DNA from: a virus
Length of the DNA stretch: 64,000 nt
Virus record (IMG/VR): IMGVR_UViG_3300047499_000102
Coordinates: 34,011-98,010 of that record
Direction: 5' to 3' (one strand)
Below are positions 9,650 to 63,897 of the stretch, piece by piece. The position numbers and the translations under genes were made by a program. The notes below the pieces were generated by a model that was not told the DNA's origin, did no database searches, and saw only the letters and a list, made by a program, of their open reading frames with translations. Numbering within the stretch: position 1 is the first letter of the stretch; each line of letters opens with the position of its first letter.

Positions 9650-9652
9650 GAC

Positions 9653-10210: not shown

Positions 10211-10242
10211 GGGGTGGCGTCCTTCGGTCATGATGGAGTTGG

Positions 10243-34917: not shown

Positions 34918-34958
34918 GTGCGTGTGCTCCTTGTGGACGCAGCGTGACCTCGCTGCAG

Positions 34959-35031
34959 GGGCTCGGGCAGGATTCGAACCTGCGATCTGCTGCTTATGAG
35001 GCAGCCGGGATGACCTCTTCCCCACCGTGCC
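34959..35031 (-). tRNA. tRNA-Met (anticodon CAU), or Ile2 if modified
   Basis: Cloverleaf by eye: acceptor GGCACGG/CCGAGCC (6 of 7 pairs, A-A mismatch at position 4), D-stem GGGA/TCCC, anticodon stem GCTGC/GCAGC around CTCATAA (anticodon at 34996-34998), 5-nt variable loop, T-arm GCAGG-TTCGAAT-CCTGC. No encoded CCA follows discriminator C. The anticodon stem lacks the three G-C pairs of initiator tRNA, so elongator Met, or Ile2 with lysidine, is more likely. It sits inside the capsid operon, between the zinc-ribbon gene and the 170-residue gene. Confidence 0.85.
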
Positions 35032-35213: not shown

Positions 35214-35254
35214 CAGTAGCAGCGTACCGAGCGGTACGCGTCGATGCTACTGGT
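35212..35254 (-). terminator. Strong hairpin across the capsid stop codon
   Basis: Inverted repeat: outer arms ACCAGTAGC (35212-35220) with GCTACTGGT (35246-35254), inner arms GCGTACC (35222-35228) with GGTACGC (35233-35239). The capsid TAG (35249-35247) lies in one arm. No T-run follows on the minus strand, so it is not a standard Rho-independent terminator. It may attenuate transcription or stabilise the abundant capsid mRNA, or mask the start of the following 58-residue gene. Confidence 0.6.
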
Positions 35255-36560
35255 AGGCATTCAAAATGAGACCACCGACGTAGCCGGAGGTCATCACCTC
35301 GGCGTCGTTGTGCGCGCAGACCACGACCGTCGAGCCGCGCGGACCGCGCTTTTGGTCGAAGTAGGTGCGCACGAGGAAGCCGCCAGTCAGTCCGCCGTCC
35401 GGGGGCACGTCGCCTCCGGTCCACCGAAAGGTCAGCGCGGTCTGGACGTCCATCTGGTTGGTGGGAGGCATGGAGCTCGGTTGCGAGATGAGGACCACGT
35501 GAGCGCCCCAGGCGAAGGCCAGGGTCTGGTTCACCGTGTACTTCATCTCGGCGACGTAGAACGGGGGCAGCTTGAGCTTGTCCGCGAGCGCCTCGGGCGT
35601 CGGGATGCCGTCGACCATGTCCTTGTAGGTGAAGAACTTCTGCACCGCGGCGTTACGGACGAACGCGCGCCACATCTGACCGCTTATCCCGATGCCCGTG
35701 ATGGGCTTGTAGGACGCGTCGATGGCCTGGTGGATGTTCAGGATCGGGTTGCTCGCCGCACCTTCGTCCCACTGGGCACCGGCGAGCAGCGTCTGGACGA
35801 GTGACGTCTGCCAGTTGCCCGAGGCCTCCAGCTGGGCGACGACGCGCACCTCGCGCTCGAGCCGCAGCGCGTCGGTGAGGACCTGCATGAGCTTCGGCAG
35901 GGGCGCGAACGGGGTGTCCGCGTTGGCGAGGACCTCCGTCGGCAAAGCGCCGGCGAGGGCATACGGAAGCGCGTTGTACTGCGAGAAGCTCAGGCCCGGG
36001 TTGACCTCGGCGACCTGTCCGCCCACGGCGTTGAGGTTCGCCATCTTCCGGCTGAAGTCGGAAGAGACGTTCCACGTGCCGTAGTAGTCGGCCTGCTTCC
36101 CGACGGGCACGACGGGCGACATGATGTCCGCGATGCCGTCGGAGATGCGGTAGCCAGCGGCGTACGGCATCACCGCGGGCTGGTGGACGTCGGTCGGCGA
36201 CAGATCCAGGGTGACGATGTCCCCGTTCTCGTCGCGGACCTTGCACTGCACTTTCGTGCCGCGGAGGTTCGCGACCTTCTGGTGGTAGTGGATCGTCGCC
36301 TCCATCACGAGGTCGGCGACATGCGAGGGGCGTCCGCTCGGGTGCCGAAGCACGCGAGCCTTGGCGGCGCCCGGCGAGGAACCGAGACCGCAGAGGATCA
36401 TCCCCTCGTCGGACGGCTCGACCGAGCGCAGATAGTGAGACCCGTCCTTGTCCGAGTAGACCCTGCAGGTCTCCTCGTCCAGATACACGGTTTGCATCGG
36501 ACTGCCGTCCTCGTTCCTTTCGGACTCGTGCGGCTTGATTCGGAGGAGGGTAGCAACCAT
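35247..36560 (-). CDS. Major capsid protein (Mu-type head, copy 1)
   Basis: 437 residues. Helix-rich N-terminus, then the stretch EVNPGLSFSQYNALPYALAG, LTDALRLEREVRVVAQLEAS and a C-terminal GGFLVRTYFDQKRGPRGSTV, the layout of Mu-like HK97-fold capsid proteins. It lies in the expected place after protease/scaffold and decoration genes. A second protein at 37218-38441 has the same order of motifs. This copy is followed by the hairpin and tRNA. Confidence 0.8.
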   Translation of the reverse strand: MVATLLRIKPHESERNEDGSPMQTVYLDEETCRVYSDKDGSHYLRSVEPSDEGMILCGLGSSPGAAKARVLRHPSGRPSHVADLVMEATIHYHQKVANLRGTKVQCKVRDENGDIVTLDLSPTDVHQPAVMPYAAGYRISDGIADIMSPVVPVGKQADYYGTWNVSSDFSRKMANLNAVGGQVAEVNPGLSFSQYNALPYALAGALPTEVLANADTPFAPLPKLMQVLTDALRLEREVRVVAQLEASGNWQTSLVQTLLAGAQWDEGAASNPILNIHQAIDASYKPITGIGISGQMWRAFVRNAAVQKFFTYKDMVDGIPTPEALADKLKLPPFYVAEMKYTVNQTLAFAWGAHVVLISQPSSMPPTNQMDVQTALTFRWTGGDVPPDGGLTGGFLVRTYFDQKRGPRGSTVVVCAHNDAEVMTSGYVGGLILNAYQ

Positions 36561-37217: not shown

Positions 37218-38441
37218 CTACGCGATGGCGCCGGTGATGATCGCGCCGACCGTTGCGCCAGCTCCCGAGGTGTTGCTGGGCGTGATCTCGATGTCGTTCA
37301 TCGCGACCACGATCCACCTCACGCGCCCGCCGCCTCGAAGGCCAGGCTCCTCGAACTCGCGAACGAGGACGCCTCCGACGCGGGCGCCGTCCTTCGCGCT
37401 GTCGCCTAGCCACCGAAGAGTATGACTCGTGCCGATGTCGGTGATGGAGTCGTTGGGTTCGAAGTCGCGCCCATCGAGCGCCCAGTCCTTCGCCGGCGGC
37501 TTGCGTCCCGACCGCGGGGTGGGCAGGGGGTAGCGCTCGTGCACCGTCGTGCGGACCAGCGGGATGTTGCCGACGCCCGTGGGCATCCACACGTACGCCG
37601 GCCCTCCTCCCGAGAACTGCTTCGCCTTGGCGTACAGGATGCGAGGAAGTTGACCACCGCCTTGGACGAAGTCGCGCACCTGCGGACCGCTGCCACCCAC
37701 GCCACCCGTACCGCTGTAGGCGAAGTACGGCGCAGCGATCTCGGGCATGATCAAGGTGTCTGCAGGCAGGTACGACGCATGCAGTGCCGCAAACAGATCG
37801 GTGACCGGCGCGCCGCTCGCGGCGCCATCCCACTTGCCGCTCGTGACGGCGATCTGATTCGCCGCGAGGAAGGTCGCCGCCGTCGTCAGCTGCTTGGCGA
37901 CTCGAGCCTCACGTCCGCGACGAAGTGCGTCCACGAGGAAGCGCGTGGTGCGCTTGCGCATGTCGAAGTCGGCGTTGGTCCACACGGGCATGGGCACGCG
38001 CGCCGCGAGCGCGTAGCCTTGTGCAACGAACTGCGTCGCGGCGAACCCAGGGTTGACCTCGGTGGGCGCGCTGACGAGGTTTGCCTGAGCCTGCACGATC
38101 TGGATTCCGTCGGCCACGTTCTCGCAAAAGAACGATCCACGATCGTGGGCGATGTAGGTGACCGGGCTCACCTCGTCGGCGATGAACTCTGCCCACCCGC
38201 CGGGAATGCCGAAGTCGGCTCGCATCGCGAGACCCGACACGACGTCGCCCGGTGCGAGGTCGAGCGTGAGAGCGCCGTCCATGCGACGCGCGGCGAACAG
38301 CGACAGATCATGCAACTCCTCGTCCTTGCCTGCGCGCACGGCGACACGCTTGCCAGAGTCATCGCGCAACTCGGCGTCGTCGGCCTCCATGTGGAACAGC
38401 ACGCGCCCGCGTGTGTCCCTGACGGTGAGCGGGGAGGACAT
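37218..38441 (-). CDS. Second major-capsid-type protein (copy 2)
   Basis: 407 residues from the ATG at 38441. Motifs line up with copy 1: EVNPGFAATQFVAQGYALAA, FLVDALRRGREARVAKQL, KWDGAASGAPVTDLFAALHA and a C-terminal GARVGGVLVREFEEPGLRGG. The N-terminal 60 residues (SSPLTVRDTRGRVLFHMEAD) are shorter and acidic. It lies directly after the protease/scaffold gene, the normal capsid place, so it may be the main or a minor (penton or mosaic) shell subunit. Confidence 0.75.
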   Translation of the reverse strand: MSSPLTVRDTRGRVLFHMEADDAELRDDSGKRVAVRAGKDEELHDLSLFAARRMDGALTLDLAPGDVVSGLAMRADFGIPGGWAEFIADEVSPVTYIAHDRGSFFCENVADGIQIVQAQANLVSAPTEVNPGFAATQFVAQGYALAARVPMPVWTNADFDMRKRTTRFLVDALRRGREARVAKQLTTAATFLAANQIAVTSGKWDGAASGAPVTDLFAALHASYLPADTLIMPEIAAPYFAYSGTGGVGGSGPQVRDFVQGGGQLPRILYAKAKQFSGGGPAYVWMPTGVGNIPLVRTTVHERYPLPTPRSGRKPPAKDWALDGRDFEPNDSITDIGTSHTLRWLGDSAKDGARVGGVLVREFEEPGLRGGGRVRWIVVAMNDIEITPSNTSGAGATVGAIITGAIA

Positions 38442-38448
38442 GGTCGAC

Positions 38449-39087
38449 CTACTTGGCCGCCCCGTGGACGGCACCGTCTTCCATCGCCTTCAGCTGGCGG
38501 GATGCTTCGTCCTGCGCGTCGCGGTAGCTGAGGCTCTTCTCGGTCATGAGCTTCGCCGTCAGGGCTGCGTGTGACAGGACGACCTTGTCGCTCTTGGGCG
38601 TCGGCATCGCGCGCTTCGGGGGGTTGCCCTGGGGCGAGTTGGTGAGCAGGCGTACCGCGTCGGTCAGCTGCTCGCGGGTCATGATGGGGTAGCTGTCCCT
38701 GAACGACTCGGGCGACTCCCGACGGTGCTTGAGCAGCGCCGGCTTGCGGTCCTCGCCGAAGTGCTTCAGCCCTGCAGGACCGTACTGCTCGATCACGAGC
38801 GCGACGTCCGCGAGGATGTCGGCCTCGTCGCGGTCGGTCTTCGCCTTCAGGAGCACCGCATTCGTCTCGATCAGGTTCTTGACGAGGTCCACCACGGTGC
38901 CTTCGGCCTTGATGCCAGCGGCCTTGCAGAGGGTCATGGCCTCCTCGTGCGCCTTCGTGAGCACCTCGTGGGTCGTCCGCAGCGTGACGAGCTCCTTGTC
39001 CTTCGTGGAGACGTGGCCGCTCAGCGTGGTCACCTCGGACTCCAGGCTCGTGATCTTCGCGGTCAGGTCGGCGGGCTTGGGCTCCAT
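38449..39087 (-). CDS. Likely nested scaffold protein from an internal start
   Basis: An in-frame ATG at 39087 (MEPKPADLTAKITSLESEVT), preceded by GAAGAGGAA, lies exactly where the protease domain ends and the coiled-coil scaffold begins. Phage Mu makes its scaffold (gpZ) from a nested start within gene I, so the same arrangement is likely. The nested product would be 212 residues. The internal start itself is inferred. Confidence 0.5.
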   Translation of the reverse strand: MEPKPADLTAKITSLESEVTTLSGHVSTKDKELVTLRTTHEVLTKAHEEAMTLCKAAGIKAEGTVVDLVKNLIETNAVLLKAKTDRDEADILADVALVIEQYGPAGLKHFGEDRKPALLKHRRESPESFRDSYPIMTREQLTDAVRLLTNSPQGNPPKRAMPTPKSDKVVLSHAALTAKLMTEKSLSYRDAQDEASRQLKAMEDGAVHGAAK

Positions 39088-40368
39088 GTGTTCCTCTTCG
39101 GGCGTGATGATCGTGGTGGTGGTGGTCGTGTCGCTCGGCTGCTTTGCGCTCAGGTTCGCGCTGCCGCCCTCGTGGTAGCTGTCGACGTGCTGGTCGATGG
39201 CGACGTCGATCATGTCCTGCACGGTGTCGAGGATGTCCTGCATCGTCGCGCCGCCAGATACACCGGCGCACTCCGCGAGCCCGTTGAGGTATGTCGACCG
39301 GAGGTCCACACCCTCGTGCTTGCCCGTGGCGTCGGCCAGCGCGCACCGCTCGCTCAGGCGGGTCATCTGGGCGCACACCTCGTCATGCGTCGAAAGCTCG
39401 GTCAGCCCCAGGCACGCGCGGATGACGGGCATGTAGTCCGACGGCGCGCGCAACGTCTGGGTGAGGAAAGGCTTCGCGAGCATCACCGCGGACGGCGTCG
39501 CTCCGCCATCGCCTGCGCGCGCTTGCCCACCATCTCGCCGCGCCGCCAAGGGACGCATCCCGTCGAGGAAAGGTTGGTTCGTCAGCCCCGCGCTCGACAC
39601 GTACGCGCCGATCTCCAGCCCGGTCTCCCGATCCTTCATGCGCAGGTGGATGGCCGGCGAGATGTACCTGTAGGCGCCCTCGCGGATGTACTGTCGCGCA
39701 AGAGCGCCCCACTCGACCTTGGCGTACAGGTTGCCGTCGTCGCCGAGCTTCATGTCGACGATCCACCCGCGCGCAGGCGCGCCGCTGACCGGGATGCTGC
39801 CTTCGGCCGCGTCCTGCTCCGAGGCGTGCTCGAAGTCGATGGGGAGTCGCCCGTCCTTGTTGCCGCGGAAGTTCGCGACGATCTGCTCGAAGACGGTGCG
39901 GTTCAGGACGAACGGCTTGCCAGACGGATGACCGCGGAACGAACCTGGCTTCGCCAGCTGAATCCAGACGGGCTTCGGGGCTTCGTCGGTGCCGAGGTCT
40001 TCGGGCTTGATGGACAGGAGCTGGGTTTCACCCCAGCCCGCGAGGGACAGATTGTGCCGCACGTGGATGGCTCCTCCGGGCGCGATGTCGGCTCGGATGT
40101 GGATGGACTGGGGGACACGCGCTCGGCCGTTCTTGCCGCCTTTCGCGGCTCGGCGGGCGTCTCGCGCCTTCTTCTCCTCGAGCTTCTTCGCCGCGCGGGC
40201 CGCCCGTCGTTCCTCGGGGCTTCGGCTCGTCGACTCCTTCGGCGGGCCGTCGGGGAACGCATTACCGAGCGTGGTCGTGCCCGTTCTCTTGTCCTCTTCG
40301 CCGGCCGACGCCGTTGGCACGTGCACGTTGCCGACGCCGAGGTCGAGGGTGGTCGCGTCGCTGGCCAT
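38449..40368 (-). CDS. Capsid maturation protease fused to scaffold (Mu gpI-like)
   Basis: 639 residues. Residues about 100-290 match the Mu gpI protease family (LPIDFEHASEQDAAEGSIPV, APARGWIVDMKLGDDG, YRYISPAIHLRMKDRETGLE, LTNQPFLDGMRPL). The C-terminal 210 residues are a Glu/Lys/Ala coiled coil of scaffold type. An Ala/Lys/Arg-rich N-terminal extension (RRAARAAKKLEEKKARD) is unusual. Processing of the capsid during head assembly is the expected role. Confidence 0.85.
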   Translation of the reverse strand: MASDATTLDLGVGNVHVPTASAGEEDKRTGTTTLGNAFPDGPPKESTSRSPEERRAARAAKKLEEKKARDARRAAKGGKNGRARVPQSIHIRADIAPGGAIHVRHNLSLAGWGETQLLSIKPEDLGTDEAPKPVWIQLAKPGSFRGHPSGKPFVLNRTVFEQIVANFRGNKDGRLPIDFEHASEQDAAEGSIPVSGAPARGWIVDMKLGDDGNLYAKVEWGALARQYIREGAYRYISPAIHLRMKDRETGLEIGAYVSSAGLTNQPFLDGMRPLAARRDGGQARAGDGGATPSAVMLAKPFLTQTLRAPSDYMPVIRACLGLTELSTHDEVCAQMTRLSERCALADATGKHEGVDLRSTYLNGLAECAGVSGGATMQDILDTVQDMIDVAIDQHVDSYHEGGSANLSAKQPSDTTTTTTIITPEEEHMEPKPADLTAKITSLESEVTTLSGHVSTKDKELVTLRTTHEVLTKAHEEAMTLCKAAGIKAEGTVVDLVKNLIETNAVLLKAKTDRDEADILADVALVIEQYGPAGLKHFGEDRKPALLKHRRESPESFRDSYPIMTREQLTDAVRLLTNSPQGNPPKRAMPTPKSDKVVLSHAALTAKLMTEKSLSYRDAQDEASRQLKAMEDGAVHGAAK

Positions 40369-40374
40369 CGAGGA

Positions 40375-40959
40375 TCAGCGGAGAGTGGTGAAGCACGCCA
40401 GCATGCCGATGGGCACGATCACACCCGATCCAGTCTCGGTCACGGTGAAGGTGATCGAGTCGCCGGGGCTCACGTATTCGATAGCCGCTGCCAGGGGCAG
40501 CGGGATGTTCGTGAAGGCCGCCCAGTTTCCGGTACCTCCTGCGGCAGCGAGCTTCGTGTTTGCGGTGGCAATGGTCGTGGCGCTACTACCGTTCGTGCGC
40601 TTCGCGACGGTCAGCGTTGCGTAGTTCGAGGAGTTGGCGGTGAGGGTGCCTTGGGTGTGGTAGTAGCAGGTGCCGATCGAGATGGACTGCGGTCCAGGGC
40701 CGAACAGCCCGACTGGGGTTTCGGTCAGGCCGCCCGTCGGAATGGCCGCGGTGGCGGGCCACTGGAACAAGTCCGTCTCGACGGCGATGGCGCCCATCTC
40801 GAAGGCATTGTTGATGTCGGAACCGATGCCAGCATGACTCGCCGATGGCGCCGGGCCCGGCGCCGGGGGCGCGCTACCTTGGCACGCGTAGATGCCGAGC
40901 GGCAGCACCGCGATGGCGAACACGGCGACGAGCGGGAGGAGGAACTTCTTCAGCGACAT
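40375..40959 (-). CDS. Lipoprotein inside the head-gene cluster
   Basis: 194 residues from the ATG at 40959, with AAGGA about 10 nt upstream. The signal peptide ends in lipobox IYAC (Cys26), then a Pro/Ala linker. The C-terminal 150 residues are beta-rich (TLTVAKRTNGSSATTIATAN; YVSPGDSITFTVTETGSGVI), like a phage tail-fibre or cell-surface beta-sandwich. It lies between portal and protease genes, an unexpected place for an exported protein. Confidence 0.7.
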   Translation of the reverse strand: MSLKKFLLPLVAVFAIAVLPLGIYACQGSAPPAPGPAPSASHAGIGSDINNAFEMGAIAVETDLFQWPATAAIPTGGLTETPVGLFGPGPQSISIGTCYYHTQGTLTANSSNYATLTVAKRTNGSSATTIATANTKLAAAGGTGNWAAFTNIPLPLAAAIEYVSPGDSITFTVTETGSGVIVPIGMLACFTTLR

Positions 40960-40988: not shown

Positions 40989-43820
40989 TCACTGCGCCGC
41001 TGTTTCGCCAGCGGGTGGGGCGAGAAGACCGCGCGCCATCAACTCGCGGATGGTGTCGCGGAACAGTACGGACCTCGCGAAGAAGTCCGAGACATTCATC
41101 CAGCGCACGACACTCGCGGGCTCGGCGGCGTAGGCCGTGCCCGTGTAGCGCGTGACGCGGAAGACGTAGAGCGGTCGGCCGTCCGTGGGCGAGGCTGTGG
41201 TGAAGAGCGGCTCGACCAGAGGCGTGCCATCGGGTTCGCGCTCGCACACGAGCCCCGTTTCTTCATGCAGTTCCCGCGCGACCGTCTCCTCGATGGTCTC
41301 ACCGGGGTCGTTCATGCCGCCGGGGAAGGCTTGCTCGCTCGGCGGCTCTGGACGTGAGACGGTGAGGATCTCACCCGCCTCGTTGAAGACGACGGCGATG
41401 GCGGCCGCTCGCAGGGTGACATTCGGACGCGCCGTCATCTCGATGGATGCCTCGACCGAGCCCTCCAGCGGATGCGGACCGGGGCCCTGGTACGACGCGG
41501 GCGCCTTTGCCCAGGACGGCATGTTGTCCACGCGCCAGCTGGTCGAGTTCTCGTCCGCCCAGCTGCCCTTCGACGTGCCCTTCTTTTGCATGTCGTGCAC
41601 GGCGTCCCAATCGCCCACCTCCGTGGGAACCTGGGCAACGTAGGCGAGTACGGGCCAGCCGAGCTTGCGGTAGCCGAGCACTCGGTGATGCCCGTCAACG
41701 ATCATGAGCTTGGACTTGCCTGGCCGCTTGACGAGTACGACGGGCTTCCACTGCCCCTTGGCCTTGCGGATCTTCTCGACGTACGGGTCGATGTCGTCGT
41801 GGCTCGCCTGCCACTTGTTCGCGTTCGAGAAATCGATGTCATCGATCGACACCTCGACGGGTCCGCCCCACGGGCCGACGTCGTGGATCCAGCGCAGGGC
41901 CTTGGGCGGGTAGTCCTCGAGGAGGTGCTCGTACACCGCCACGGCGACGTCGCGGTCGCCGATGTCCGCGTCGGCCTTCGCACTGAGCTTCAGGAAGAAG
42001 CTCGTATCGTCGGCGTCGTCCTCCGCTGTCCAGGCCCCCCATGTCATCTTCTTCGGCCTGGATGGCTTGCTCTTCTTCGCGGCACCCTTCTTCGCGGCCG
42101 CCTTGCCAAGACCGGTCTTGCCCGCGGTCTTGCCAGGCCCTGTCTTTTTGCCACCCGAGTCGTTCGTGTTGGCCGACTGATTTGACCCAGGCGGGGCGAC
42201 GATAGGCTGGCTCGCCTTGATCTTCGCGACCTCGTGGTCGTTGTCGACCTGCTGTTGCTCGATGTCCTTCTGCTCCTCGCTCTTCAGGTCGGAGTACACC
42301 ATCGTCGGATCAAGGACGTCGCTCAGGAACGAGCCGACTGGCTTCGCGTCGCCCGTCTCGTCGTCCTCCTCCTGCTCGATGATGGGGATGCCCGTCTGGT
42401 CGCTGACCTTCTTCAGGTCGACGCGTGCGCCGATGGCGGTGAGCCCCTTGGCGTTCTCGATCACCGTCTTGGCGTCGGGCTCGCGATCCACGTTCACGAA
42501 CACGTGCGGAAGCACCCGCAGCGCGTCGGGCATGTTCTGCTTCACCAGCCAGTAAACGACGTCCCTGCGGAAGCTCTCGGCGAAGGACGTCGCGTCGTAC
42601 TGTTGGAGATCGACCTCGCTACGTTCTTGAACCTCGGCGGTGCCCGAGCCTCCCAGTCCGCCAGACCCAGCATGGTCGGTGCTGAGCGTACCGCCCAGGG
42701 CGATCTTGCTCATCTCGGAGTTGCAGAAGGCGCTCCATTCGAGGTACGTGACCTTCGACGTACCCGTGCCGTCGTAGCCGATCGCCTTGATGCTGGTACT
42801 GTCGGGCAGCATCGCATACGAGCCGCTCCCGGGTCCGACCTGCGCGAGGGCCTGCGCAAGCACCGCCTCGTCCTCGGGGCTGGCTTCGCGGGGCTTGCCG
42901 TCGTCCTGCGTCGAGTAGGTGCCGAGCAGAAAGCCCGTGGCGAATCGCTCGAGGTACTTCATGCCGCCACGGACGCCAGCGCGCTTGAACAGCGACCAGA
43001 TCGCCATCTGGCGACCGATGCCCTCGCGCGTCGGATAGTCGCCTCTCAGCTGCGGCGCGTACACGATGAACTTCCCCGGCCAGTCCGCGATCCTCGTGCC
43101 AAAGGTCGAGATGTTCGTGGGCGAAGTCCCGAAGGAATCGTTTCCGAGGACCTGCCCCTGGTCCCAAATGTAGAGCGAGTAACTCTGCATGTCGGGGTAG
43201 GCGATTCGCCGCGAGTGGATGAAGTCGAAGCGATCGATGTGCCAGCCGTCGCTGTCCTTCGTCCAGAAGATCTCGGCCGCCGTCGGGCCGTAGTACACGC
43301 CCCACAACAGCGTCGCGACCGTCTGTGTCAGGTTCGGGATCCGGTCGATCTCGGCCTGCACCATCACCGCCGCCTTCTCGGCGAGCTCGCGGTCTGGATG
43401 CTCCTCTGGCAAACGCAGAGGACGCACGTCGATGCGACCGTTCGCGGTGGCGACGATTCGCTTCTCCATGACGGAGAAGCAGTGCCCGTCCATCTCCAGC
43501 AACTCGTCGAGGAGGTCGACCAGCTGCTGGCGGTAGCCGGTGATGGCCAGCCGCATGCAGGATGCGAGGTAGCCCGTGGTGAGCGATACCCCGATGATGA
43601 AGGGGTAGCGGTCGATCAGCGGCCAGGGCGCAACTGCGCGCTGGTCCCTGCGGGTCTCGATGGGCGGCACCGCGGGCGTAGCGCCGGCGGGCGAGGGGAA
43701 GTCCGTTCCCGTGACCTTGCCGGTGCTTCGACGAGGCGGGGGCACGAGGTTCGCCCGCATCGTTACGGCCTTCGGCTTCTTGGCCGCCGCGCGCGCCCTT
43801 GTCTGATGTCGTGCGGCCAT
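40989..43820 (-). CDS. Portal protein (Mu gp29/DUF935-like) fused to ParB-like and NUDIX domains
   Basis: 943 residues from the ATG at 43820. Residues about 60-510 match the DUF935 portal family (VATLLWGVYYGPTAAEIFW, WDQGQVLGNDSFG, KYLERFATGFLLGTYSTQDD, KIALGGTLSTDHAGSGG), the dodecameric head vertex. A Lys/Ala/Gly-rich linker lies near 550-590, then a ParB/sulfiredoxin-type domain with IVDGHHRVLGYRKLG near 706-720. The end is a NUDIX hydrolase whose box (about 828-850) fits G-x5-E-x7-RE-L-x-EE-x-GL. No stop or frameshift separates the parts. No separate gpF-like morphogenesis gene is seen. Confidence 0.85.
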   Translation of the reverse strand: MAARHQTRARAAAKKPKAVTMRANLVPPPRRSTGKVTGTDFPSPAGATPAVPPIETRRDQRAVAPWPLIDRYPFIIGVSLTTGYLASCMRLAITGYRQQLVDLLDELLEMDGHCFSVMEKRIVATANGRIDVRPLRLPEEHPDRELAEKAAVMVQAEIDRIPNLTQTVATLLWGVYYGPTAAEIFWTKDSDGWHIDRFDFIHSRRIAYPDMQSYSLYIWDQGQVLGNDSFGTSPTNISTFGTRIADWPGKFIVYAPQLRGDYPTREGIGRQMAIWSLFKRAGVRGGMKYLERFATGFLLGTYSTQDDGKPREASPEDEAVLAQALAQVGPGSGSYAMLPDSTSIKAIGYDGTGTSKVTYLEWSAFCNSEMSKIALGGTLSTDHAGSGGLGGSGTAEVQERSEVDLQQYDATSFAESFRRDVVYWLVKQNMPDALRVLPHVFVNVDREPDAKTVIENAKGLTAIGARVDLKKVSDQTGIPIIEQEEDDETGDAKPVGSFLSDVLDPTMVYSDLKSEEQKDIEQQQVDNDHEVAKIKASQPIVAPPGSNQSANTNDSGGKKTGPGKTAGKTGLGKAAAKKGAAKKSKPSRPKKMTWGAWTAEDDADDTSFFLKLSAKADADIGDRDVAVAVYEHLLEDYPPKALRWIHDVGPWGGPVEVSIDDIDFSNANKWQASHDDIDPYVEKIRKAKGQWKPVVLVKRPGKSKLMIVDGHHRVLGYRKLGWPVLAYVAQVPTEVGDWDAVHDMQKKGTSKGSWADENSTSWRVDNMPSWAKAPASYQGPGPHPLEGSVEASIEMTARPNVTLRAAAIAVVFNEAGEILTVSRPEPPSEQAFPGGMNDPGETIEETVARELHEETGLVCEREPDGTPLVEPLFTTASPTDGRPLYVFRVTRYTGTAYAAEPASVVRWMNVSDFFARSVLFRDTIRELMARGLLAPPAGETAAQ

Positions 43821-43880: not shown

Positions 43881-44312
43881 ATGAAGATTCGAAGCAACCT
43901 CGCCGGCTACATCGAGAAGGTGTTCGGCGTGCGCATTGGGCTGCGAGGTTCGTTCGGCAGGATGCCGGAGAGGAAGCGGTACGAGTTGCGCCCCGACGAG
44001 ATCGCCCAGGTGCAGGCAGCGGTGCGTCGCGCCTCGATGGCTGCGCCCGTGAAGGTCGAGGACGACCGGATCCTCGTCGACGAGGTGCGCGCGCGCCAGT
44101 TCACCGGCCCGATGGGGCCCGAGATCGGCGCCCGGCACGTGGTCTTCATGGGCGATGCGGCGTGGCGCAACATCGCGCGGGCCAGGGGCATCGACGTCGC
44201 GAGCATCCAGCCCGACGAGGAGAAGGGCTTCCCGTATTTCACCGCTGTGCCGCTGCCGGACGACGAGCGCGGATCTGGCGGCATCCTGATCCGTCCAGTG
44301 GGGCCGAAGTGA
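43881..44312 (+). CDS. Plus-strand gene between terminase and portal
   Basis: 143 residues from the ATG at 43881; a GAGGGG and, further up, GGAGG precede it. Basic N-terminus (MKIRSNLAGYIEKVFGVRIG), then a mixed region ending GILIRPVGPK. Protein-like composition and codon use favour this strand; the reverse reading is Ser/Arg/Thr junk. It is opposite to the flanking packaging genes and converges with the terminase gene, 15 bp apart. No family recognised. A moron-type insertion is likely. Confidence 0.6.
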   Translation: MKIRSNLAGYIEKVFGVRIGLRGSFGRMPERKRYELRPDEIAQVQAAVRRASMAAPVKVEDDRILVDEVRARQFTGPMGPEIGARHVVFMGDAAWRNIARARGIDVASIQPDEEKGFPYFTAVPLPDDERGSGGILIRPVGPK

Positions 44313-44327: not shown

Positions 44328-45773
44328 TCAGCCGTAGCCCATCGGCTGGTCCTCGAGTTGGGTGCCGGGGCGGATGCGGCCACCGCCATGTGGCGGCTTC
44401 GGATTGCGGTCGATCATCAGGTCGGTAAAGAGCCAGACCCGCGCGTCCAGAAGGTCCGGCGAGTCCATCCCGAGGTCCGGCTCCCAGACGCAGAGTTGGT
44501 CTTCCAGTTCCCCGAGGGCGCCCACGTGGTGGATGCGATGCTGCTCGTCGAGCGAGGCGATGGGCTCGGCGCGGGTGACCTTGCCCTTCGACGCGGTGAC
44601 CTCGACGATCTTCACCTCGCGCCGAATGGTGCGCAGGTTGGCCGCGACGAGATCGCCACCCTGGTTGCGCTCGATGACGAAGTAATCGGCCTGGACGGCG
44701 TCGAAGACCTCGAAGGCCTTCTTCGCCCACTGCTCCGGGCTCCACTCGCCCTGGATGGCCTCAAGGACGTAGCCGTGCAGGCGCTTGTCCTTCACGCCGG
44801 CCGGCGGGGGGGCCGTGCAGCCCGCGACGATCGCGGTCTTGTTCGGGCGGCGGTCGCTGAGGTTCGCCGCGCGCGCCTTCGTTGTCTGCTGCGACTGCTG
44901 CGAGGTGCTCGTTGCGTGGTCGACGGCGACCGCGGTGCGCGCGATGTCGATGGGCGCTTCGAGGACGCGGTCTTCGTCCAGCTGCTGGCGCTTCCAGAGC
45001 GCGCTTGGCGCGTCGTCGAGGATGTCCGCTTCGAGCTCTTGGCGGCCGAGGCGTGTGCCCTCGTGCGGCTTGATGACCGTCTCGAACCACTGCTCGTTGA
45101 GGTTCGCCACGTTCTCGTAGCTCGACCCCTTGATGACGCGCACGTGGGTCGGCGCTCGCGAGACGAGCCACCTGATGAGCGGGGTAGGGCGCGGCGTCGT
45201 CGAGATGACCCCGCGCAGGTCGTCGCCCACGCGGAAGCTCATCATCAGCTGGTCCCACGCCGCCTGGGCGTAGCGCCACGCTGCCAGCTCGTCTGCCCAG
45301 AAGGTGTCGCAGTTCGGGCCGCGGAACTTGTCGGGCTTGTCGGCCGAGATGAGGCGCGCCCACGAGCCGTTCTTCCACGTGACGCGCGCCTTGGACGGGT
45401 TGTAGATCGGGCGCTCGCCAGGGGGCGCGCAAACGAGGAGCCCGCTGTCGCCCTCGATCATCGTGTCGCGGATGTCTCCCGCGGTCGCGCCAGCGAGGAT
45501 GATGTGCCGACGCTTCTCCATCGCCCGCTGATGGATGAACTCCGCGCCCGTGCGGGTCTTGCCGAAGCCTCGCCCGGCGAGCAGGAGCCAGATGATCCAG
45601 CGCCCCTCGGGAGGAAGCTGCTTCGGTCGCGCCCAGAAGCGCCACGCGTACTTCAGGTGTCGCAGCTGCGCCGGACTGAGGGCGCCGATGATGCGCGCGC
45701 GCTCCTCGTGTGGCAGTCGCGCGAGATCGTGGACGGTCGGGAAGCCGGCCGGGAACGCGAGGGCCGCGCTCAT
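44328..45773 (-). CDS. Terminase large subunit
   Basis: 481 residues. Walker A AGRGFGKT (residues 66-73) and Walker B TFWADE (D161/E162) mark the ATPase motor. TTPRPTPLIRWLVSRAP is the following coupling region, and the C-terminal half (VAVDHATSTS, VIERNQGGDLV, VTASKGKVTRAEPI) holds the RNase-H-like nuclease with the usual acidic positions. It overlaps the small subunit gene by 4 bp. A ~25-residue Gln/Ser/Lys insert after the first nuclease strand is unusual. Confidence 0.9.
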   Translation of the reverse strand: MSAALAFPAGFPTVHDLARLPHEERARIIGALSPAQLRHLKYAWRFWARPKQLPPEGRWIIWLLLAGRGFGKTRTGAEFIHQRAMEKRRHIILAGATAGDIRDTMIEGDSGLLVCAPPGERPIYNPSKARVTWKNGSWARLISADKPDKFRGPNCDTFWADELAAWRYAQAAWDQLMMSFRVGDDLRGVISTTPRPTPLIRWLVSRAPTHVRVIKGSSYENVANLNEQWFETVIKPHEGTRLGRQELEADILDDAPSALWKRQQLDEDRVLEAPIDIARTAVAVDHATSTSQQSQQTTKARAANLSDRRPNKTAIVAGCTAPPPAGVKDKRLHGYVLEAIQGEWSPEQWAKKAFEVFDAVQADYFVIERNQGGDLVAANLRTIRREVKIVEVTASKGKVTRAEPIASLDEQHRIHHVGALGELEDQLCVWEPDLGMDSPDLLDARVWLFTDLMIDRNPKPPHGGGRIRPGTQLEDQPMGYG

Positions 45774-55273: not shown

Positions 55274-56290
55274 CTACGCGGCAGCGGCCATCGCGCAGGC
55301 GGTCGAGAGAAACTGGCGGTTGTACTGCATGGCGTCGTTGAACTGCGCGGCGAGGCGGTTCTCGTCGGTCTTGCCGCGCTGGTGGGTGAGGTACTCGGTG
55401 GCGGCGTTGTACGCGGCCCACCACGTGCCCTTCACGCCTCGCATCGTGTTGCCCTTGCCGCTCTCGAAGTTCTCGCGGATGGCGTCGACGCAGCGGGAGG
55501 AGAAGTCGTTTTCGCTCGTCGCGGCGGTCGCGTCGTCGAGGATGGCGTTGACAAGCTCGCTCGACGTCTCGGGGGCCTTCGCCTTCTTCCCGACGGGCGC
55601 GGGGCGCTTGAACACCACGTTGACGTACTTCGCGAGATCGTCGCCCGTGCACTTCACGCGGGCGAGGAAGCGATACCGCTCGGCGGTCGCTTCGAACTGG
55701 GCGTTGGCGAGGTTCATCGCGTCGCGCACGGCGACGAGCACGTCCTCGACGTTGCGCGTGTGGCGGACGCGAATGAGCTTGCTGTTGGTGGCCATCGAGA
55801 GCGTGTTGGCGCAGACGACGCGAACAGGCGTGAACCCGACGCGCACGGCGAACTTGCCATCGTGGGCGTTCGACAGGATGACGTACTTCAGCACGTCGTC
55901 CCCCTTGACGATGGTCATGGGGTCTCGGTTCAGCTTCGCAAGCACCCAGATGCGTGAGCCCCCGAAGAGCGATCCCGCGGTCTCGATGCTGGCTTCCTTC
56001 GCCTCGAGGAACGGGTCGAACCAAGAAAACGCCTCGGCGTTCTGCAGGGGCGTCCACGCGGGGCCGACAACGCCGAAGATCTTCCCGTCGCTCTTTCGGT
56101 AGCAGGCCTTGTGGCTGACGGGCTCCCCGTCGCTCGTCTGCAGAGCCTTCAGGCCGACTTCCCAGTCCATCCCCGCGCACTTCATCGCTTCGGCAGTCGT
56201 GGGTGGCGCGTCGAGCTTGATCCCGAGCTTGTGCCACGGGGTCTTGCCAACGTAGATCATCGAGCGAGCGCTTTCGAGCATGTGAGCCAT
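55274..56290 (-). CDS. DUF932 family phage/plasmid-like protein
   Basis: 338 residues; AAGGAGA lies about 10 nt before the ATG at 56290. The start MAHMLESARSMIYVGKTPWH, and later VGPAWTPLQNAEAFSWFDPF, KYVILSNAHDGKFAVRVGF and RVVCANTLSMAT are hallmarks of DUF932 (TIGR03299-type), often present in phages and plasmids. The molecular function is not established. Length is typical. Confidence 0.85.
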   Translation of the reverse strand: MAHMLESARSMIYVGKTPWHKLGIKLDAPPTTAEAMKCAGMDWEVGLKALQTSDGEPVSHKACYRKSDGKIFGVVGPAWTPLQNAEAFSWFDPFLEAKEASIETAGSLFGGSRIWVLAKLNRDPMTIVKGDDVLKYVILSNAHDGKFAVRVGFTPVRVVCANTLSMATNSKLIRVRHTRNVEDVLVAVRDAMNLANAQFEATAERYRFLARVKCTGDDLAKYVNVVFKRPAPVGKKAKAPETSSELVNAILDDATAATSENDFSSRCVDAIRENFESGKGNTMRGVKGTWWAAYNAATEYLTHQRGKTDENRLAAQFNDAMQYNRQFLSTACAMAAAA

Positions 56291-58789: not shown

Positions 58790-58888
58790 ATGCTCTACCC
58801 GAACCTCTCCTCCATCCCCCCCTTCATCCGGTCCGTCATCGCGCGGCGCCTCGCTTCCCCCGGCGAGCCGTGCGAGGCCGCCTCGTGA
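58790..58888 (+). CDS. 32-residue leader coupled to the restriction gene
   Basis: ATG at 58790: MLYPNLSSIPPFIRSVIARR..., ending in EAAS; its TGA overlaps the GTG of the Type ISP gene (GTGA). The terminal 16 bases, CGAGGCCGCCTCGTGA, equal those at 57163-57178 and fold into a hairpin covering GAGG. Translation of the leader would open the hairpin and expose the ribosome site. No clear site of its own was seen. Confidence 0.5.
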   Translation: MLYPNLSSIPPFIRSVIARRLASPGEPCEAAS

Positions 58889-61800
58889 GCGCCCTTCACG
58901 ATCTCCTCGACCGTTTCCGCTCCGCCGCGGCGACCCACCGCGAGTCAGGCACGTATTTCGAGGAGCTGACCGTCGCGTACCTGAAGAACGAGCCCGTGTA
59001 CCGCGAGCTCTATCGGAGCGTCGAGCCCTACGCCGTGTGGGCCGAGCGACAGGGGCTCGACAAGCGCGACGCCGGTATCGACCTCGTCGCCGAGACGTTC
59101 ACCAACGAGGCCCACGCGATCCAGTGCAAGCTGTACGCGGCGGACTACGAGGTCAGGAAATCCGACATCGACAGCTTCTTCACCGCATCCGGCAAGAAGC
59201 CGTTCACGCACCGGATCATCTTCGCGACGACGAGCCACTGGTCCGAGCACGCGGAGGATGCTCTCCGCGGTCAGCACATCCCAGTCACCAAGGTCGACCT
59301 CAACGCGCTCGAGATCAGCGCGATCGATTGGTCCAGTTTCACGCCCCGCGAGCCGGTCGTCCTCAAGGCGAAGAAGACGCCTCGCCTTCACCAGCGCGAC
59401 GCGCTTGCCGCTGTTCGCGCGGGCCTCCAGGACGCCGACCGCGGGAAGCTGATCATGGCGTGCGGCACCGGGAAGACCTTCACGAGCCTGAAGATCGCCG
59501 AGGAGCTCGCGGGGGCAGGAAAGCGCGTGCTCTTCCTCGTCCCGAGCCTCGCGCTGCTCTCGCAGACGCTCACCGAGTGGACGCAGGAGAGTGACACGAA
59601 GCTCCAAAGCTTCGCGGTCTGTTCTGACAGCGACGTCGGGAAGAAGCGCAAGAAAGATGACGACACCGTGCAAACGTTCGTGCACGAGCTCCAGTACCCG
59701 GCGACGACGGACGCGAAGCGCCTCGCCGCCGAGATGAAGGCGCGGCACGACGCGAAGCACATGAGCGTCGTCTACGCGACGTACCACTCTATCGAGGTCG
59801 TGCATCGCGCCCAGCAGGAGCAGGGTCTCCCTGCCTTCGATCTCATCGTCTGCGACGAGGCGCACCGGACCACCGGCGCCACGTTCGACGGCGAGGATGA
59901 GAGCCCGTTCGTGCGCGTGCACGACGCCAAGTACATCCGCGCGAAGAAGCGCCTCTACATGACGGCGACGCCGCGCATCTTCGGCAACCTCGCGAAGGCG
60001 AAGGCGGAGCAGGACAGCGTCGAGCTCTGCTCGATGGACAAGGAGGAGCAGTACGGCAAGAACCTCCACGTCCTCACGTTCAACAAGGCGGTCACCGCGG
60101 GGTTGCTCGTCGATTACAAGGTCATCGTCCTCGCCGTCGACGAGGCGCACGTGAGCCGCCGCATCCAGGAGCTGCTGAAGTCGCCCGACAATACGCTCCG
60201 CGTCGACGACGCGTCGAAGATCATCGGCTGCTGGAAGGCGCTCTCCAAGCAGGGCATCGTCGAGGGATTGCACGGCGACGGTACGCCGATGAAACGCGCC
60301 GTCGCCTTCTGCCAGGTCATCGAGCGCCAGCCCAATGCGAGGGTGCACAAGGTCAGCTCGAAGGAGATCGCGGAGATCTTTGAGGCCGTCGTCAAGGCGT
60401 ACCAGGAGAGCGAGCCCACCGAAGACGGTGACACCGCGAAGCGGCTCCGCTGCGAGGCCGCGCACGTGGACGGCAGCATGAACGCGACGCAGAAGGAGGA
60501 GAAGATCGACTGGCTCAAGGCGGAGACGCCCGAGGACACGTGCCGCATCCTCAGCAACGTCCGCTGCCTCTCCGAAGGCGTAGACGTGCCGGCGCTCGAC
60601 GCGGTCCTCTTCTTGACGCCGCGTAACTCGCAGATTGACGTCGTCCAATCCGTCGGGCGCGTGATGCGCAAGATCGACGGCAAGAAGCGCGGGTACGTCG
60701 TGCTTCCGGTCGTCATCCCCGCCGGGAAGGAGCCGCACGAAGCGCTCAACGACAACGAGACCTATCGCGTCGTGTGGCAGGTGCTGAACGCGCTCCGCGC
60801 ACACGACGATCGCTTCGACGCGATGGTCAATAAGCTCTCCCTCATCGGCCAGGACACGACGAAGATGGAGGTCATCGCGATCTCCGACAAGATCGCACGT
60901 CGGCCGCGCTCGCGAGGCGGTTCCGAGGGCACGCGAATCGCCGCGCGGAAGCGAAGCGCCGTAGGCGGAAACACGATCGGCGTCGCCGGTCCGGGTGGGG
61001 ATGCGGACGCACCTGCTGCGCAAGCGACCTTGGAGTTCAACATCGGCGAGATCGAGCGCGCGATCTACGCGAAGCTCGTCGACAAGGTCGGCAACCGCCG
61101 CCACTGGGAGGAGTGGGCGAAGGACATCGCTGAGATCGCCGCCACGCACATCGATCGGATCAAGGGCATCCTCGAGAACAAGAAGAACAGGCGTGAGATC
61201 GATGCGTTCGAGAGCTTCCGCGACGAGCTCCGCGACGACTTAAACCCCAGCATCAGCGACGACGACGTCATCGAAATGCTGGCGCAGCACATGGTGACGA
61301 AGCCCGTCTTCGACGCGCTCTTCGCCGGCCACAGCTTCGCCACCGAGAACTCGATGTCGCGCGCCATGCAGAGCGTCCTCGACGTGCTGCACGAGCACCA
61401 TCTCGAGAAGGAGTCGAGCACCCTGAAGGCGTTCTACGACTCGGTGAAGCTGCGCGCGGAGGGAATCACGAACGCCGAGGGCAAGCAGAAAATCGTGCTC
61501 GAGCTGTACGACAAGTTCTTCAGCCACGCGTTCAAGAAGATGAGCGACCGGCTCGGCATCGTGTACACGCCGGTCGAGATCGTGGACTTCATTTTGAAGA
61601 GCGTCGATCACCTGCTGCGCACGGAGTTCGGGCAGACGCTTGGCGCCAAGGGCGTGCACATCCTCGACCCGTTCACGGGCACTGGCACGTTCATCACGCG
61701 CCTGATGCAGACTGGGCTCCTCTCGAAAGAGGAGCTCGCGCGTAAATACCGGGACGAGATCCACGCGAACGAGATCGTGTTGCTCGCCTATTACATCGCG

Positions 61801-63897
61801 GCGATCAACATCGAGGCCGCGTACCACGACGTCGTGGGGGGCGAGTACGCGCCGTTCGAGGGGATCTGCCTCACGGACACCTTTCAGCTCCATGAGAAGG
61901 ACGACCTCATCTCGCGTGTGCTCGTGGACAACAGCGCGCGCCGGACGCGGCAGAAGAAGCTCGACATTCGCGTCATCGTGTCGAACCCGCCGTACTCGAT
62001 CGGGCAGGAAAGCGAGAACGACAACAACGCGAACGTCGAGTACGAACACCTCGACGGACGCATCGCAGAGACTTACGCCGCGCGCACCAGCGCGAAGCTC
62101 GCGAAGGGACTCTACGACAGCTACGTGCGCGCCATCCGATGGGCGAGCGACCGTATCGGCGACCGCGGGGTCATCGGCTTCGTCACGAACGCAAACTTCA
62201 TCGAGGCGAACACGACGGACGGCCTCCGCAAGTGCCTCGCCGAAGAGTTCAGCGACCTCTACATGTTTCACCTGCGAGGCAACCAACGCACCGCGGGCGA
62301 GCGATCGAGGAAGGAGGGGGGCAAAATCTTCGGCAGCGGAAGCCGTGCGCCGGTGGCGATCTCGTTGCTGGTTAAGAACCCCAACGCGGCGCGGCGGGGC
62401 CGAATATTTTTCCGCGACGTCGGCGACTACCTTACGCGCGAGCAGAAACTCGCGACGGTGAAGGAGTTCGGGAGCGTGGAGGGGGTCACCAAAGGGAATG
62501 GCTGGACGGCCATCACGCCCGACGCGCATGGCGACTGGTTGAAGCAGCGGGACGAGAGTTTCGGTCGCCACATCGTCCTGGGCGACAGGAGCGGGGCGGA
62601 GCCCGCCGTGTTCGACGTCTTCTCCCTGGGCGTGAACACGAACCGCGACGCCTGGGTGCGCAGCCCCTCAGAGACCGGCCTTTCTGCGAATGTCGCCAAG
62701 ATGATCCGGTTCTACGAGGCTGAACGCGCGCGGTTCAACGCTCAACACCGAGCGCTGGATAAGAAGGCCCGCGCTGCGCGCGTCGATGACTTCGTGGACA
62801 CGGATCCCACGAGGATCAGCTGGACCGTGAACCTGAAGAGCGATCTCGCGCGGGACACGAAGCTTGCGTTCGATGCAACGCGCATCGTGCCGAGCCTCTA
62901 TCGACCGTTTTCGAAGGAATGGTTGTACTTCGATCGAAAGCTGAACGAGCGCGTGCTCCAGATGCCCCGCTTGTTTCCGTCGTCGAAGACGACGAACAGG
63001 GTCATCGGCGTGTCCGCTGGCGAGTCGCGGTCGGGATTTTCGGCCCTAATGGCCGACGTCGTTCCCAGCCTTCACGCCGCGGACATGGTTGGCTCGCAGT
63101 TTTTCCCGCTCTACGTGTACGAGGCGGACGACGATGGATCCGGCGCCGACCTGTTCGCGTCAACGAAGAGCAAGAAGAGTGCTGCTCCCACGCGCCGTGA
63201 CGCGATCACCGACGCTGGCCTGGCGCACTTCCGGGACGCGTACCCCGGCGAGAGGATCACGAAGGAGCACGTCTTCTACTACGTCTACGGCGTCCTCCAC
63301 TCGACCCAGTACCGCGAGCGCTACGCCGACAATCTCGGCAAGGAGCTCCCACGCATCCCGTGCATGAAGACGGCGGTGGATTTCTGGGCGTTCAGCAAGG
63401 CGGGGCGCGCGCTGGCGGATCTGCACGTCGGCTATGAGCGCGTGCCCGAGTATCAGGGCGTCACGATCGAGGGACCGAAGAAGCCGACGGGAGCGCAGTA
63501 CCGCGTCGAGAAAATGGCGTTCGGGAAGGGCAAGGACAAGACGATCATTCACTACAACGAGATCATCACCGTCCGCGAGATCCCGCTCGAGGCCTACGAG
63601 TACGTTGTGAACGGCAAGTCGGCGATCGAATGGGTGCGGGAGCGGCAGTGCGTCTTGACCGAGGACCCGAGCGGCATCGTGAAGGATGCGAACGCTTGGG
63701 CGACGGAGACCGTCGGCGACCCGCGCTACCCGCTCTCGCTGTTACTCCGCGTGATCACCGTGAGCCTCGAGACGATGAAGATCGTGCGCGGCCTTCCGCC
63801 GTTGAGCGAGGCCACGGTGTATCCGAAGACGGAGGGGCGCGAGTACCTCATGGTGGCAGAGCCGGTGGCGCCGCTCGGTAGGACTAAAGGCACATAG
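58885..63897 (+). CDS. Type ISP restriction-modification enzyme (nuclease-helicase-methyltransferase)
   Basis: 1670 residues from the GTG at 58885; a GTG at 58870 is less likely. Order matches single-chain Type ISP enzymes (LlaGI/LlaBIII type, ~1570 residues). Mrr-like nuclease: AGIDLVAE and IQCKLY (D66, Q80-x-K82). SF2 translocase: Walker A ACGTGKT near 192, DEAH near 323, MTATPR, and QSVGRVMRK near 588. N6-adenine methyltransferase: DPFTGTGTF near 927 and NPPYS near 1034. The last ~350 residues are the target-recognition region. All catalytic motifs are intact. It would cleave unmodified foreign DNA and protect its own site by methylation. Confidence 0.92.
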   Translation: MSALHDLLDRFRSAAATHRESGTYFEELTVAYLKNEPVYRELYRSVEPYAVWAERQGLDKRDAGIDLVAETFTNEAHAIQCKLYAADYEVRKSDIDSFFTASGKKPFTHRIIFATTSHWSEHAEDALRGQHIPVTKVDLNALEISAIDWSSFTPREPVVLKAKKTPRLHQRDALAAVRAGLQDADRGKLIMACGTGKTFTSLKIAEELAGAGKRVLFLVPSLALLSQTLTEWTQESDTKLQSFAVCSDSDVGKKRKKDDDTVQTFVHELQYPATTDAKRLAAEMKARHDAKHMSVVYATYHSIEVVHRAQQEQGLPAFDLIVCDEAHRTTGATFDGEDESPFVRVHDAKYIRAKKRLYMTATPRIFGNLAKAKAEQDSVELCSMDKEEQYGKNLHVLTFNKAVTAGLLVDYKVIVLAVDEAHVSRRIQELLKSPDNTLRVDDASKIIGCWKALSKQGIVEGLHGDGTPMKRAVAFCQVIERQPNARVHKVSSKEIAEIFEAVVKAYQESEPTEDGDTAKRLRCEAAHVDGSMNATQKEEKIDWLKAETPEDTCRILSNVRCLSEGVDVPALDAVLFLTPRNSQIDVVQSVGRVMRKIDGKKRGYVVLPVVIPAGKEPHEALNDNETYRVVWQVLNALRAHDDRFDAMVNKLSLIGQDTTKMEVIAISDKIARRPRSRGGSEGTRIAARKRSAVGGNTIGVAGPGGDADAPAAQATLEFNIGEIERAIYAKLVDKVGNRRHWEEWAKDIAEIAATHIDRIKGILENKKNRREIDAFESFRDELRDDLNPSISDDDVIEMLAQHMVTKPVFDALFAGHSFATENSMSRAMQSVLDVLHEHHLEKESSTLKAFYDSVKLRAEGITNAEGKQKIVLELYDKFFSHAFKKMSDRLGIVYTPVEIVDFILKSVDHLLRTEFGQTLGAKGVHILDPFTGTGTFITRLMQTGLLSKEELARKYRDEIHANEIVLLAYYIAAINIEAAYHDVVGGEYAPFEGICLTDTFQLHEKDDLISRVLVDNSARRTRQKKLDIRVIVSNPPYSIGQESENDNNANVEYEHLDGRIAETYAARTSAKLAKGLYDSYVRAIRWASDRIGDRGVIGFVTNANFIEANTTDGLRKCLAEEFSDLYMFHLRGNQRTAGERSRKEGGKIFGSGSRAPVAISLLVKNPNAARRGRIFFRDVGDYLTREQKLATVKEFGSVEGVTKGNGWTAITPDAHGDWLKQRDESFGRHIVLGDRSGAEPAVFDVFSLGVNTNRDAWVRSPSETGLSANVAKMIRFYEAERARFNAQHRALDKKARAARVDDFVDTDPTRISWTVNLKSDLARDTKLAFDATRIVPSLYRPFSKEWLYFDRKLNERVLQMPRLFPSSKTTNRVIGVSAGESRSGFSALMADVVPSLHAADMVGSQFFPLYVYEADDDGSGADLFASTKSKKSAAPTRRDAITDAGLAHFRDAYPGERITKEHVFYYVYGVLHSTQYRERYADNLGKELPRIPCMKTAVDFWAFSKAGRALADLHVGYERVPEYQGVTIEGPKKPTGAQYRVEKMAFGKGKDKTIIHYNEIITVREIPLEAYEYVVNGKSAIEWVRERQCVLTEDPSGIVKDANAWATETVGDPRYPLSLLLRVITVSLETMKIVRGLPPLSEATVYPKTEGREYLMVAEPVAPLGRTKGT

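Follow-up and report, generated by a model that had tools for sequence, protein, structure and literature searches.

A Mu-type phage portal protein carrying a ParB/sulfiredoxin-fold module and a NUDIX domain

The portal-ParB-NUDIX fusion gene

The stretch of viral DNA analyzed here, hereafter the window, comprises 64,000 nucleotides (bases 34011-98010) of the virus record IMGVR_UViG_3300047499_000102, which has a total length of 98,010 bases. On its minus strand, within a head gene block of terminase, portal, protease, and capsid genes, lies a gene whose product joins a Mu-type portal protein to a ParB-like module and a NUDIX domain. An unbroken frame of 943 residues had been predicted here from the sequence, without mention of the strand; translation of the minus strand confirmed its coordinates and yielded a single open frame from the ATG at 43820 without internal stops, and no frame break, the event named beforehand as a possible objection, was found between portal and C-terminal parts. 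The plus-strand frame translated over the same positions is interrupted by stops. The coding score favors an alternative start (ATG at 43760, 923 amino acids) over the ATG at 43820, and the frame remains open further upstream to a GTG at 44138 (1049 amino acids); all three candidate starts leave the three domains intact. The gene and its parts are as follows:

40989..43820 (-): portal-ParB-NUDIX fusion gene; 943 amino acids from the ATG at 43820, stop included in the coordinates
42387..43517 (-): Mu-type portal core, residues 102-478; PF06074, E 7e-56
41958..42188 (-): linker, about residues 545-621; Lys/Ala/Gly/Pro-rich composition
41565..41957 (-): predicted ParB/sulfiredoxin-fold module, residues 622-752; DGHHR motif at 709-713
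41082..41414 (-): NUDIX domain, residues 803-913; PF00293, E 1.3e-16; box near residues 834-857 (41250-41321)

The identification of the N-terminal part as a Mu-type portal is borne out by the PF06074 match, which spans profile positions 2-336 of 336, and by the location of the gene between terminase and head protease. The Lys/Ala-rich linker of the original prediction is also Gly-rich, and it is weakly conserved across three aligned relatives. Over the whole protein, Pfam (E ≤ 0.1) recognized Portal_Mu (PF06074) and NUDIX (PF00293) and no third family. Among the PHROGs profiles, the NUDIX part weakly matched phrog_15528, annotated as “portal” (E 0.004, profile positions 522-606 of 794), a first hint that databases already hold NUDIX-bearing portals. 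The whole protein matched 120 of 50,697 phage records in a tblastn search, none of them over more than 80% of its length, and had no match as a single query against IMG/VR; both kinds of search possibly exclude records very close to the window’s own.

The NUDIX domain

The NUDIX box, which follows the pattern GX5EX7REUXEEXGU, had been called perfect and is indeed complete, at about residues 835-857. Its acidic and Arg residues are conserved in all six aligned members, window included (L049, one of the related contigs designated here by L and a number, has His at the last position), and the NUDIX domains of these relatives share 34-50% identity with that of the window; loss of the catalytic Glu residues, raised earlier as a point that could count against a functional enzyme, was thus not observed. 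Structures were predicted separately for the NUDIX and ParB domains, and both returned the folds originally expected. The NUDIX model (predicted local distance difference test, pLDDT, 85.7) had 530 PDB matches at E ≤ 0.001, and those listed are NUDIX proteins. By profile and by structure, MutT and ADP-ribose pyrophosphatases ranked highest, and the nearest solved relative by profile was MutT; NudE was not among the 13 NCBIfam matches of the window protein, in a comparison that did not include T4 NudE itself. Exactly one PF00293 domain per record was found in eight of 11 records (exceptions L022, L032, and L036), and in the window’s own record the single NUDIX domain is the portal-borne copy.

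The ParB module

The region between linker and NUDIX domain had been described as a ParB/sulfiredoxin-type domain, a description upheld by several kinds of evidence, although no Pfam family, including any ParB family, matched it at E ≤ 0.1. PHROGs gave weak ParB matches at about residues 656-723 (best E 1.4e-4), and the closest solved structure by sequence in a PDB search was a serine kinase (E 9e-7 to 1e-6), to which only about 57 profile positions could be aligned. The serine kinase model SerK was the top ParB-type NCBIfam model in all six proteins scanned, with scores far under the cut-off in every case (30.6 bits for the window protein against a cut-off of 380; a weak match, 4e-4, in L020). 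The predicted structure of the module (pLDDT 92.7) matched the folds of PadC, free serine kinase, sulfiredoxin, and SbnI (best E 4.6e-4, up to 3e-3; template modeling (TM) scores ≤0.58). The SerK/SbnI enzymes resemble the window module in being its top sequence match and among its top fold matches, VDGHHR stretch included; yet the corresponding TM-scores are just 0.38-0.41, and the NCBIfam scores remain far below the SerK threshold. In an alignment of 21 ParB modules, with 37-60% identity to that of the window, the invariant columns were W, P, W, A, P, DGHHR, G, W, H, and Q; the DGHHR motif was kept in all 21. By its modeled structure and its conserved central motif, the module has the ParB/sulfiredoxin fold, and it likely has a nucleotide-binding role.

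Two other candidates were considered. A standard partition ParB was rejected, as the fusion protein had no match to a helix-turn-helix or dimerization domain (Pfam, E ≤ 0.1; a ParA partner was not searched for). The DdrB-like ParB family of polyvalent proteins has its own Pfam entry, which did not match the fusion protein at the same threshold. A mixed ParB and NUDIX alignment for folding was dropped; its NUDIX rows, at 12-16% identity, had evidently been placed on the wrong part.

In the 50,697 phage records, tblastn with the ParB part gave six weak matches (best E 0.1), and an IMG/VR scan with the module alone found one relative, of 53% identity, on a portal of another family (PF06381). The set was widened by alignments of two and then five members, and portal and NUDIX searches added further contigs. 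With a local profile at E < 1e-30, and counting loci on the same contig once, the module was detected in 23 contigs, or 24 including the window, with 23 distinct sequences that are mostly portal-borne. It resides on a recognized portal in 14 of the 24 contigs (eight via Pfam, six via the portal-clade profile), and in 16 when L018 and L019, both near-identical to the portal-borne L017, are added. The bearer protein in L027 resembles annotated portals (tblastn, 24%, 3e-9, two records), and that of L033 looks like L027; in L039, the module forms its own open reading frame (ORF) behind a portal-like ORF just below the Pfam cut-off (38.2 vs. 39.1 bits). Genome contigs contributed four loci. In one of them, L041 (Kitasatospora), the module is borne by a portal of family PF04860; the remaining three matched ParB more weakly. 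In L015, the gene that follows the ParB-bearing portal (8407-10320) combines an inorganic-pyrophosphatase-type domain with MuF; this domain is possibly a further nucleotide-linked cargo next to a ParB module.

NUDIX on the portal or on the head protease

The closest portal relatives form a clade of nine contigs, assembled from a portal-clade alignment search and a NUDIX search (window, L022, L024, L026, L048, L049, L050, L051, and L052). The NUDIX scan covered the best 80 of 185 matches, and counts derived from it are lower bounds. Seven of the nine carry the ParB module on the portal. The NUDIX domain is portal-borne in the window alone among these contigs; six of them (L024, L048, L049, L050, L051, and L052) have it at the N-terminus of the adjoining protease gene, in L052 in a frame broken by a TAG, unlike the window, whose Mu I-like protease is without a NUDIX domain. 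The available L026 locus stops before any protease gene. Within the proteases, the NUDIX domain precedes a conserved LDLxPxDV-type motif in L049 and follows it in the other five, and with the portal counted in, it occupies three different places across the clade. The junction of ParB module and NUDIX domain, in that order, was found in the window alone among the relatives.

When 82 NUDIX domains were placed in a tree, the smallest clade to contain the window domain, the protease-borne copies, and a portal-borne copy from L053 had nine tips (support 0.977), all of them head-borne, two tips being halves of one L052 gene; the tree is midpoint-rooted and the domain short, so this evidence is moderate. 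L022 aligns with the window protein through the portal, the ParB module, and the following segment at 54% identity. These relatives indicate a conserved design and not chance or a chimera.

The domain trio on other portal families

The original prediction had called for a search for the same three-domain order. The trio itself recurred in two further records, in other orders and on other portal families: three of the 24 ParB-module contigs (window, L053, and L020) have all three domains, each on a different portal family and each in a different order. In L053, a record of 104 kb, a PF06381 portal is followed by NUDIX and then ParB, in a stop-to-stop frame of 1143 amino acids (1135 from an ATG); in L020, a record of 95.5 kb, a protein of 1739 amino acids consists of a PF04860 portal, MuF, NUDIX, ParB, and a terminal part with an HExGH motif. 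The L020 NUDIX is placed outside the window’s clade in the 82-domain tree, and its pairing with ParB therefore involves a separate NUDIX; since window and L053 share one NUDIX clade, their pair may have moved between portals and not arisen twice.

Ten of the long NUDIX ORFs (>500 amino acids) from the NUDIX scan, some of them stop-to-stop frames and thus putative genes, were examined with Pfam. Two have the arrangement portal-NUDIX-MuF (L098 and L115); in others, NUDIX is joined to an XkdF-type protease (L089, weak and below cut-off), to DUF2213 (L086 and L126), to GNAT (L105), or to DUF5661 (L102), or occurs alone (L106). As a side observation, L096 (3518-6922) and L097 (3494-5293) each have NUDIX and ADP-ribosyltransferase within a single long stop-to-stop frame, in keeping with an ADP-ribose theme. 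The records, many of them fragments, do not allow a claim that the ParB-bearing portal replaces MuF: MuF was absent from the records of the window, L022, L024, L048, L051, and L052, and L050, without ParB, has it, but L049 has neither, and L015, L017, L020, and L053 have both.

Relation to published fusions

Novelty in kind finds no support for this fusion. Fusions of Nudix domains to portal, MuF, and head peptidase proteins have been published, with predicted packaging into the head (PMC9503650, section 3.5.2), and the same paper describes Nudix domains as commonest in myoviruses. Release into the host is the published expectation for such fusions (PMC9503650 and PMC5512222). As in the window, the NUDIX domains of these published fusions are joined directly to a head protein, and the window phage has a tail sheath; in contrast to the window, neither a ParB module nor a Mu-type portal is named in the accessible text of PMC9503650, and the domains are called T4-NudE-like, whereas the window NUDIX scores closest to MutT and ADP-ribose pyrophosphatases. 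A deposited example is gp3 of Arthrobacter phage Mufasa8 (YP_009885083.1; 1000 amino acids), labeled MutT/NUDIX hydrolase in RefSeq, which also combines portal and NUDIX in one chain; unlike the window protein, it has a PF04860 portal and a MuF domain after NUDIX, a ParB module was not found in it, and its NUDIX falls outside the window’s clade. Its portal-NUDIX-MuF arrangement without a ParB match is shared with L098 and L115.

The polyvalent proteins described in PMC5512222 resemble the window protein in combining several unlike enzyme-type domains per phage protein, with ParB-like domains and portal fusions among them; their ParB is of the DdrB type, however, which Pfam does not match in the window protein, and NUDIX is mentioned there once, for neighbors or fusions of inorganic pyrophosphatase (InPase). 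A survey of the ParB-CTPase fold (PMC12704722) deals with this fold as well, which it reports as frequent in fusions and on mobile elements; the survey searched with PF02195, which does not match the window protein (E ≤ 0.1), and the words “portal” and “Nudix” are absent from its main text. NUDIX domains on head proteins are thus a known kind of fusion, whereas the ParB family on portals, the trio, and the relocation of NUDIX were not found in the searchable literature, outside of which lie most subscription journals and supplements.

The head gene block

The neighbors of the fusion gene complete a head block, followed downstream by a tail sheath gene and, further on, by a baseplate J protein; with these two, the phage looks contractile-tailed.

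44328..45773 (-): large subunit of the terminase, encoded upstream of the portal
40375..40959 (-): small protein of secreted/lipoprotein-like type, located between the portal and protease genes; signal assigned by eye; no family match
38449..40368 (-): head maturation protease, Mu I-like; PF10123, E 2e-29; LDLGVGNV at residue 8
37218..38441 (-): major-head-protein-like protein 1; phrog_1005, E 1.5e-11; LDLAPGDV at residue 60
35247..36497 (-): major-head-protein-like protein 2; phrog_1005, E 3.7e-32; LDLSPTDV at residue 97

The pattern [LMIV][DE]L[AGSV]x[GSATP][DNEGS]V occurs in three of the 144 predicted proteins of the record, namely the protease and both major-head-like proteins, against 0.16 expected from 200 shuffles (maximum 2); the pattern was written after the motif had been seen, and the shuffle test is post hoc. 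In the relatives, the motif recurs in the frames of the protease and in those occupying the head-gene position (one L052 match is antisense). It may represent a prohead protease site or a head-docking signal. The two phrog_1005 proteins are separated by an ORF of 147 amino acids, and they may both be shell proteins, related to each other, of one capsid.

Proposed role and alternative explanations

The C-termini of HK97-fold portals point into the head interior, the prohead protease is enclosed in the procapsid, and the portal normally stays in the particle. Like polyvalent effectors, the window protein is a single phage chain with at least two domains of unlike biochemistry whose gene lies in the head block, and it is most likely inner-head cargo of this type. 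On balance we consider it probable that the portal C-terminus carries two cargo domains inside the head, most likely for use early in infection or within the particle. ParB module and NUDIX hydrolase would hang from the C-terminus behind a flexible-looking linker and, given the inward orientation of portal C-termini, should face the procapsid interior, with about twelve copies of each. The same NUDIX lineage is found on the protease in six of the eight clade relatives, and the shared need therefore seems to be the head interior, not attachment to the portal. The NUDIX domain would hydrolyze a nucleotide or a nucleoside diphosphate compound (NDP-X), perhaps an ADP-ribose-type defense signal or a damaged nucleotide, and the ParB module would bind a nucleotide or transfer phosphate; the NUDIX could work either within the particle, on the nucleotides there, or after release into the host. 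As the portal stays in the particle, delivery would need proteolysis, which the linker would permit; no site was found. What the sequences show directly is the domains, the complete box, the homology, and the recurrence. Inner-head placement, activity, and a joint function of the two domains are what we infer here; the substrate of the NUDIX and a release by proteolysis in the linker are our guesses, and a counter-defense role is possible. With the same pair also present on portals of two other families, phages of this sort may well hold enzymes that handle nucleotides within the virion. A more far-reaching version, which we regard as doubtful, would treat NUDIX and SerK-like ParB as a functional inner-head nucleotide-processing pair that can also occur divided over portal and protease, rides on any protein of the procapsid interior, and disarms a nucleotide-based host alarm at the onset of infection through NDP-X cleavage together with nucleotide binding or phosphate transfer.

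Several observations weigh against an inner-head cargo function. Five of the 24 ParB contigs have the module as a stand-alone ORF of 138-156 amino acids, with no recognized head gene among the neighbors tested, and the family is therefore not always head-borne. The portals of L049 and L050, two of the nine in the clade, are without the ParB module, and the 23-kb contig of L022 has no NUDIX, so that neither domain is essential to the portal. The NUDIX family is common in cells, and all 14 control genomes have it; little follows from its presence as such, and its location is what counts. The sequence does not reveal the substrate: MutT and ADP-ribose pyrophosphatases both score high. Finally, the LDLxPxDV-type motif is absent from the portal, on which no cleavage site is therefore indicated.

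In a specific form of the cargo interpretation, the prohead protease would cut the portal within the linker and the free ParB-NUDIX piece would be ejected. In its favor are the length of the linker, its Lys/Ala-rich composition and lack of conservation, the Mu I-like protease gene further downstream, and the position of the protease-borne NUDIX copies next to the conserved head motif; yet the portal lacks this motif, and its reading as a cleavage site is a guess. We consider this form less likely than not. Alternatively, the C-terminal domains could serve head assembly or DNA packaging, by cleansing nucleotides or sensing nucleoside triphosphates in the procapsid, and never be delivered to the host. 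The two NUDIX carriers, portal and protease, are both assembly components, and the closest solved relative by profile, MutT, is a nucleotide-pool cleaner; however, with ParB missing from two clade portals and NUDIX from at least L022, assembly does not need them, and their occurrence on other portal families is a better fit to cargo. We consider an assembly role rather unlikely.

Functionless baggage, acquired by recombination and neutral, would account for the patchy combination of domains across the relatives and for the singular position of the window among the nine clade members; it is improbable in view of the box acidic residues kept in six of six NUDIX domains and the DGHHR motif kept in 21 of 21 ParB modules at the identities given above, and of the same domain pair on three portal families. 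An assembly or annotation artifact that fuses separate genes has in its favor that the record is metagenomic and that a near-identical second copy was not found, in searches that may omit the closest records; L022, continuous through portal, ParB, and the next segment at 54% identity, and the trio in two other records make this hardly credible, and artifact and frame break were rejected on the evidence of the relatives.

That sister phages have one NUDIX lineage attached either to the portal or to the protease, two inner-head proteins, amounts to a natural swap experiment, which separates a requirement for being inside the head from one for being on the portal. Fusions of enzymes to head proteins are usually read singly; here, the same two domains co-occur on portals of three families, with a different order in each. 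A further outcome of the comparison is a ParB-fold family that Pfam does not match and that likely has a nucleotide role, whose domain of 131 residues could be expressed and assayed.

Other features of the window

The protein encoded at 40375-40959 has a signal-like start and a lipobox-like Cys, both read by eye. Similar small genes occupy the gap between portal and protease in several relatives, those of L022, L024, and L048 resembling the window protein and those of L026, L049, and L050 being without a signal-like start; the product is possibly a virion or superinfection-exclusion protein. Between terminase and portal, an ORF of 143 amino acids with a good coding score and no family match lies on the opposite strand (43881-44312, plus strand). 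A tRNA-Met (CAT) gene (34958-35031, minus strand) is located inside the head block beside the second major-head-like protein. Outside of this block, the window encodes a protein of 1670 amino acids in which the components of a Type ISP restriction-modification enzyme are present (58885-63897, plus strand; Mrr-type nuclease, helicase, methylase, coupler, and specificity domains), which to our knowledge seems unusual for a phage record, and a DUF932 protein (55274-56290, minus strand; E 7e-52).

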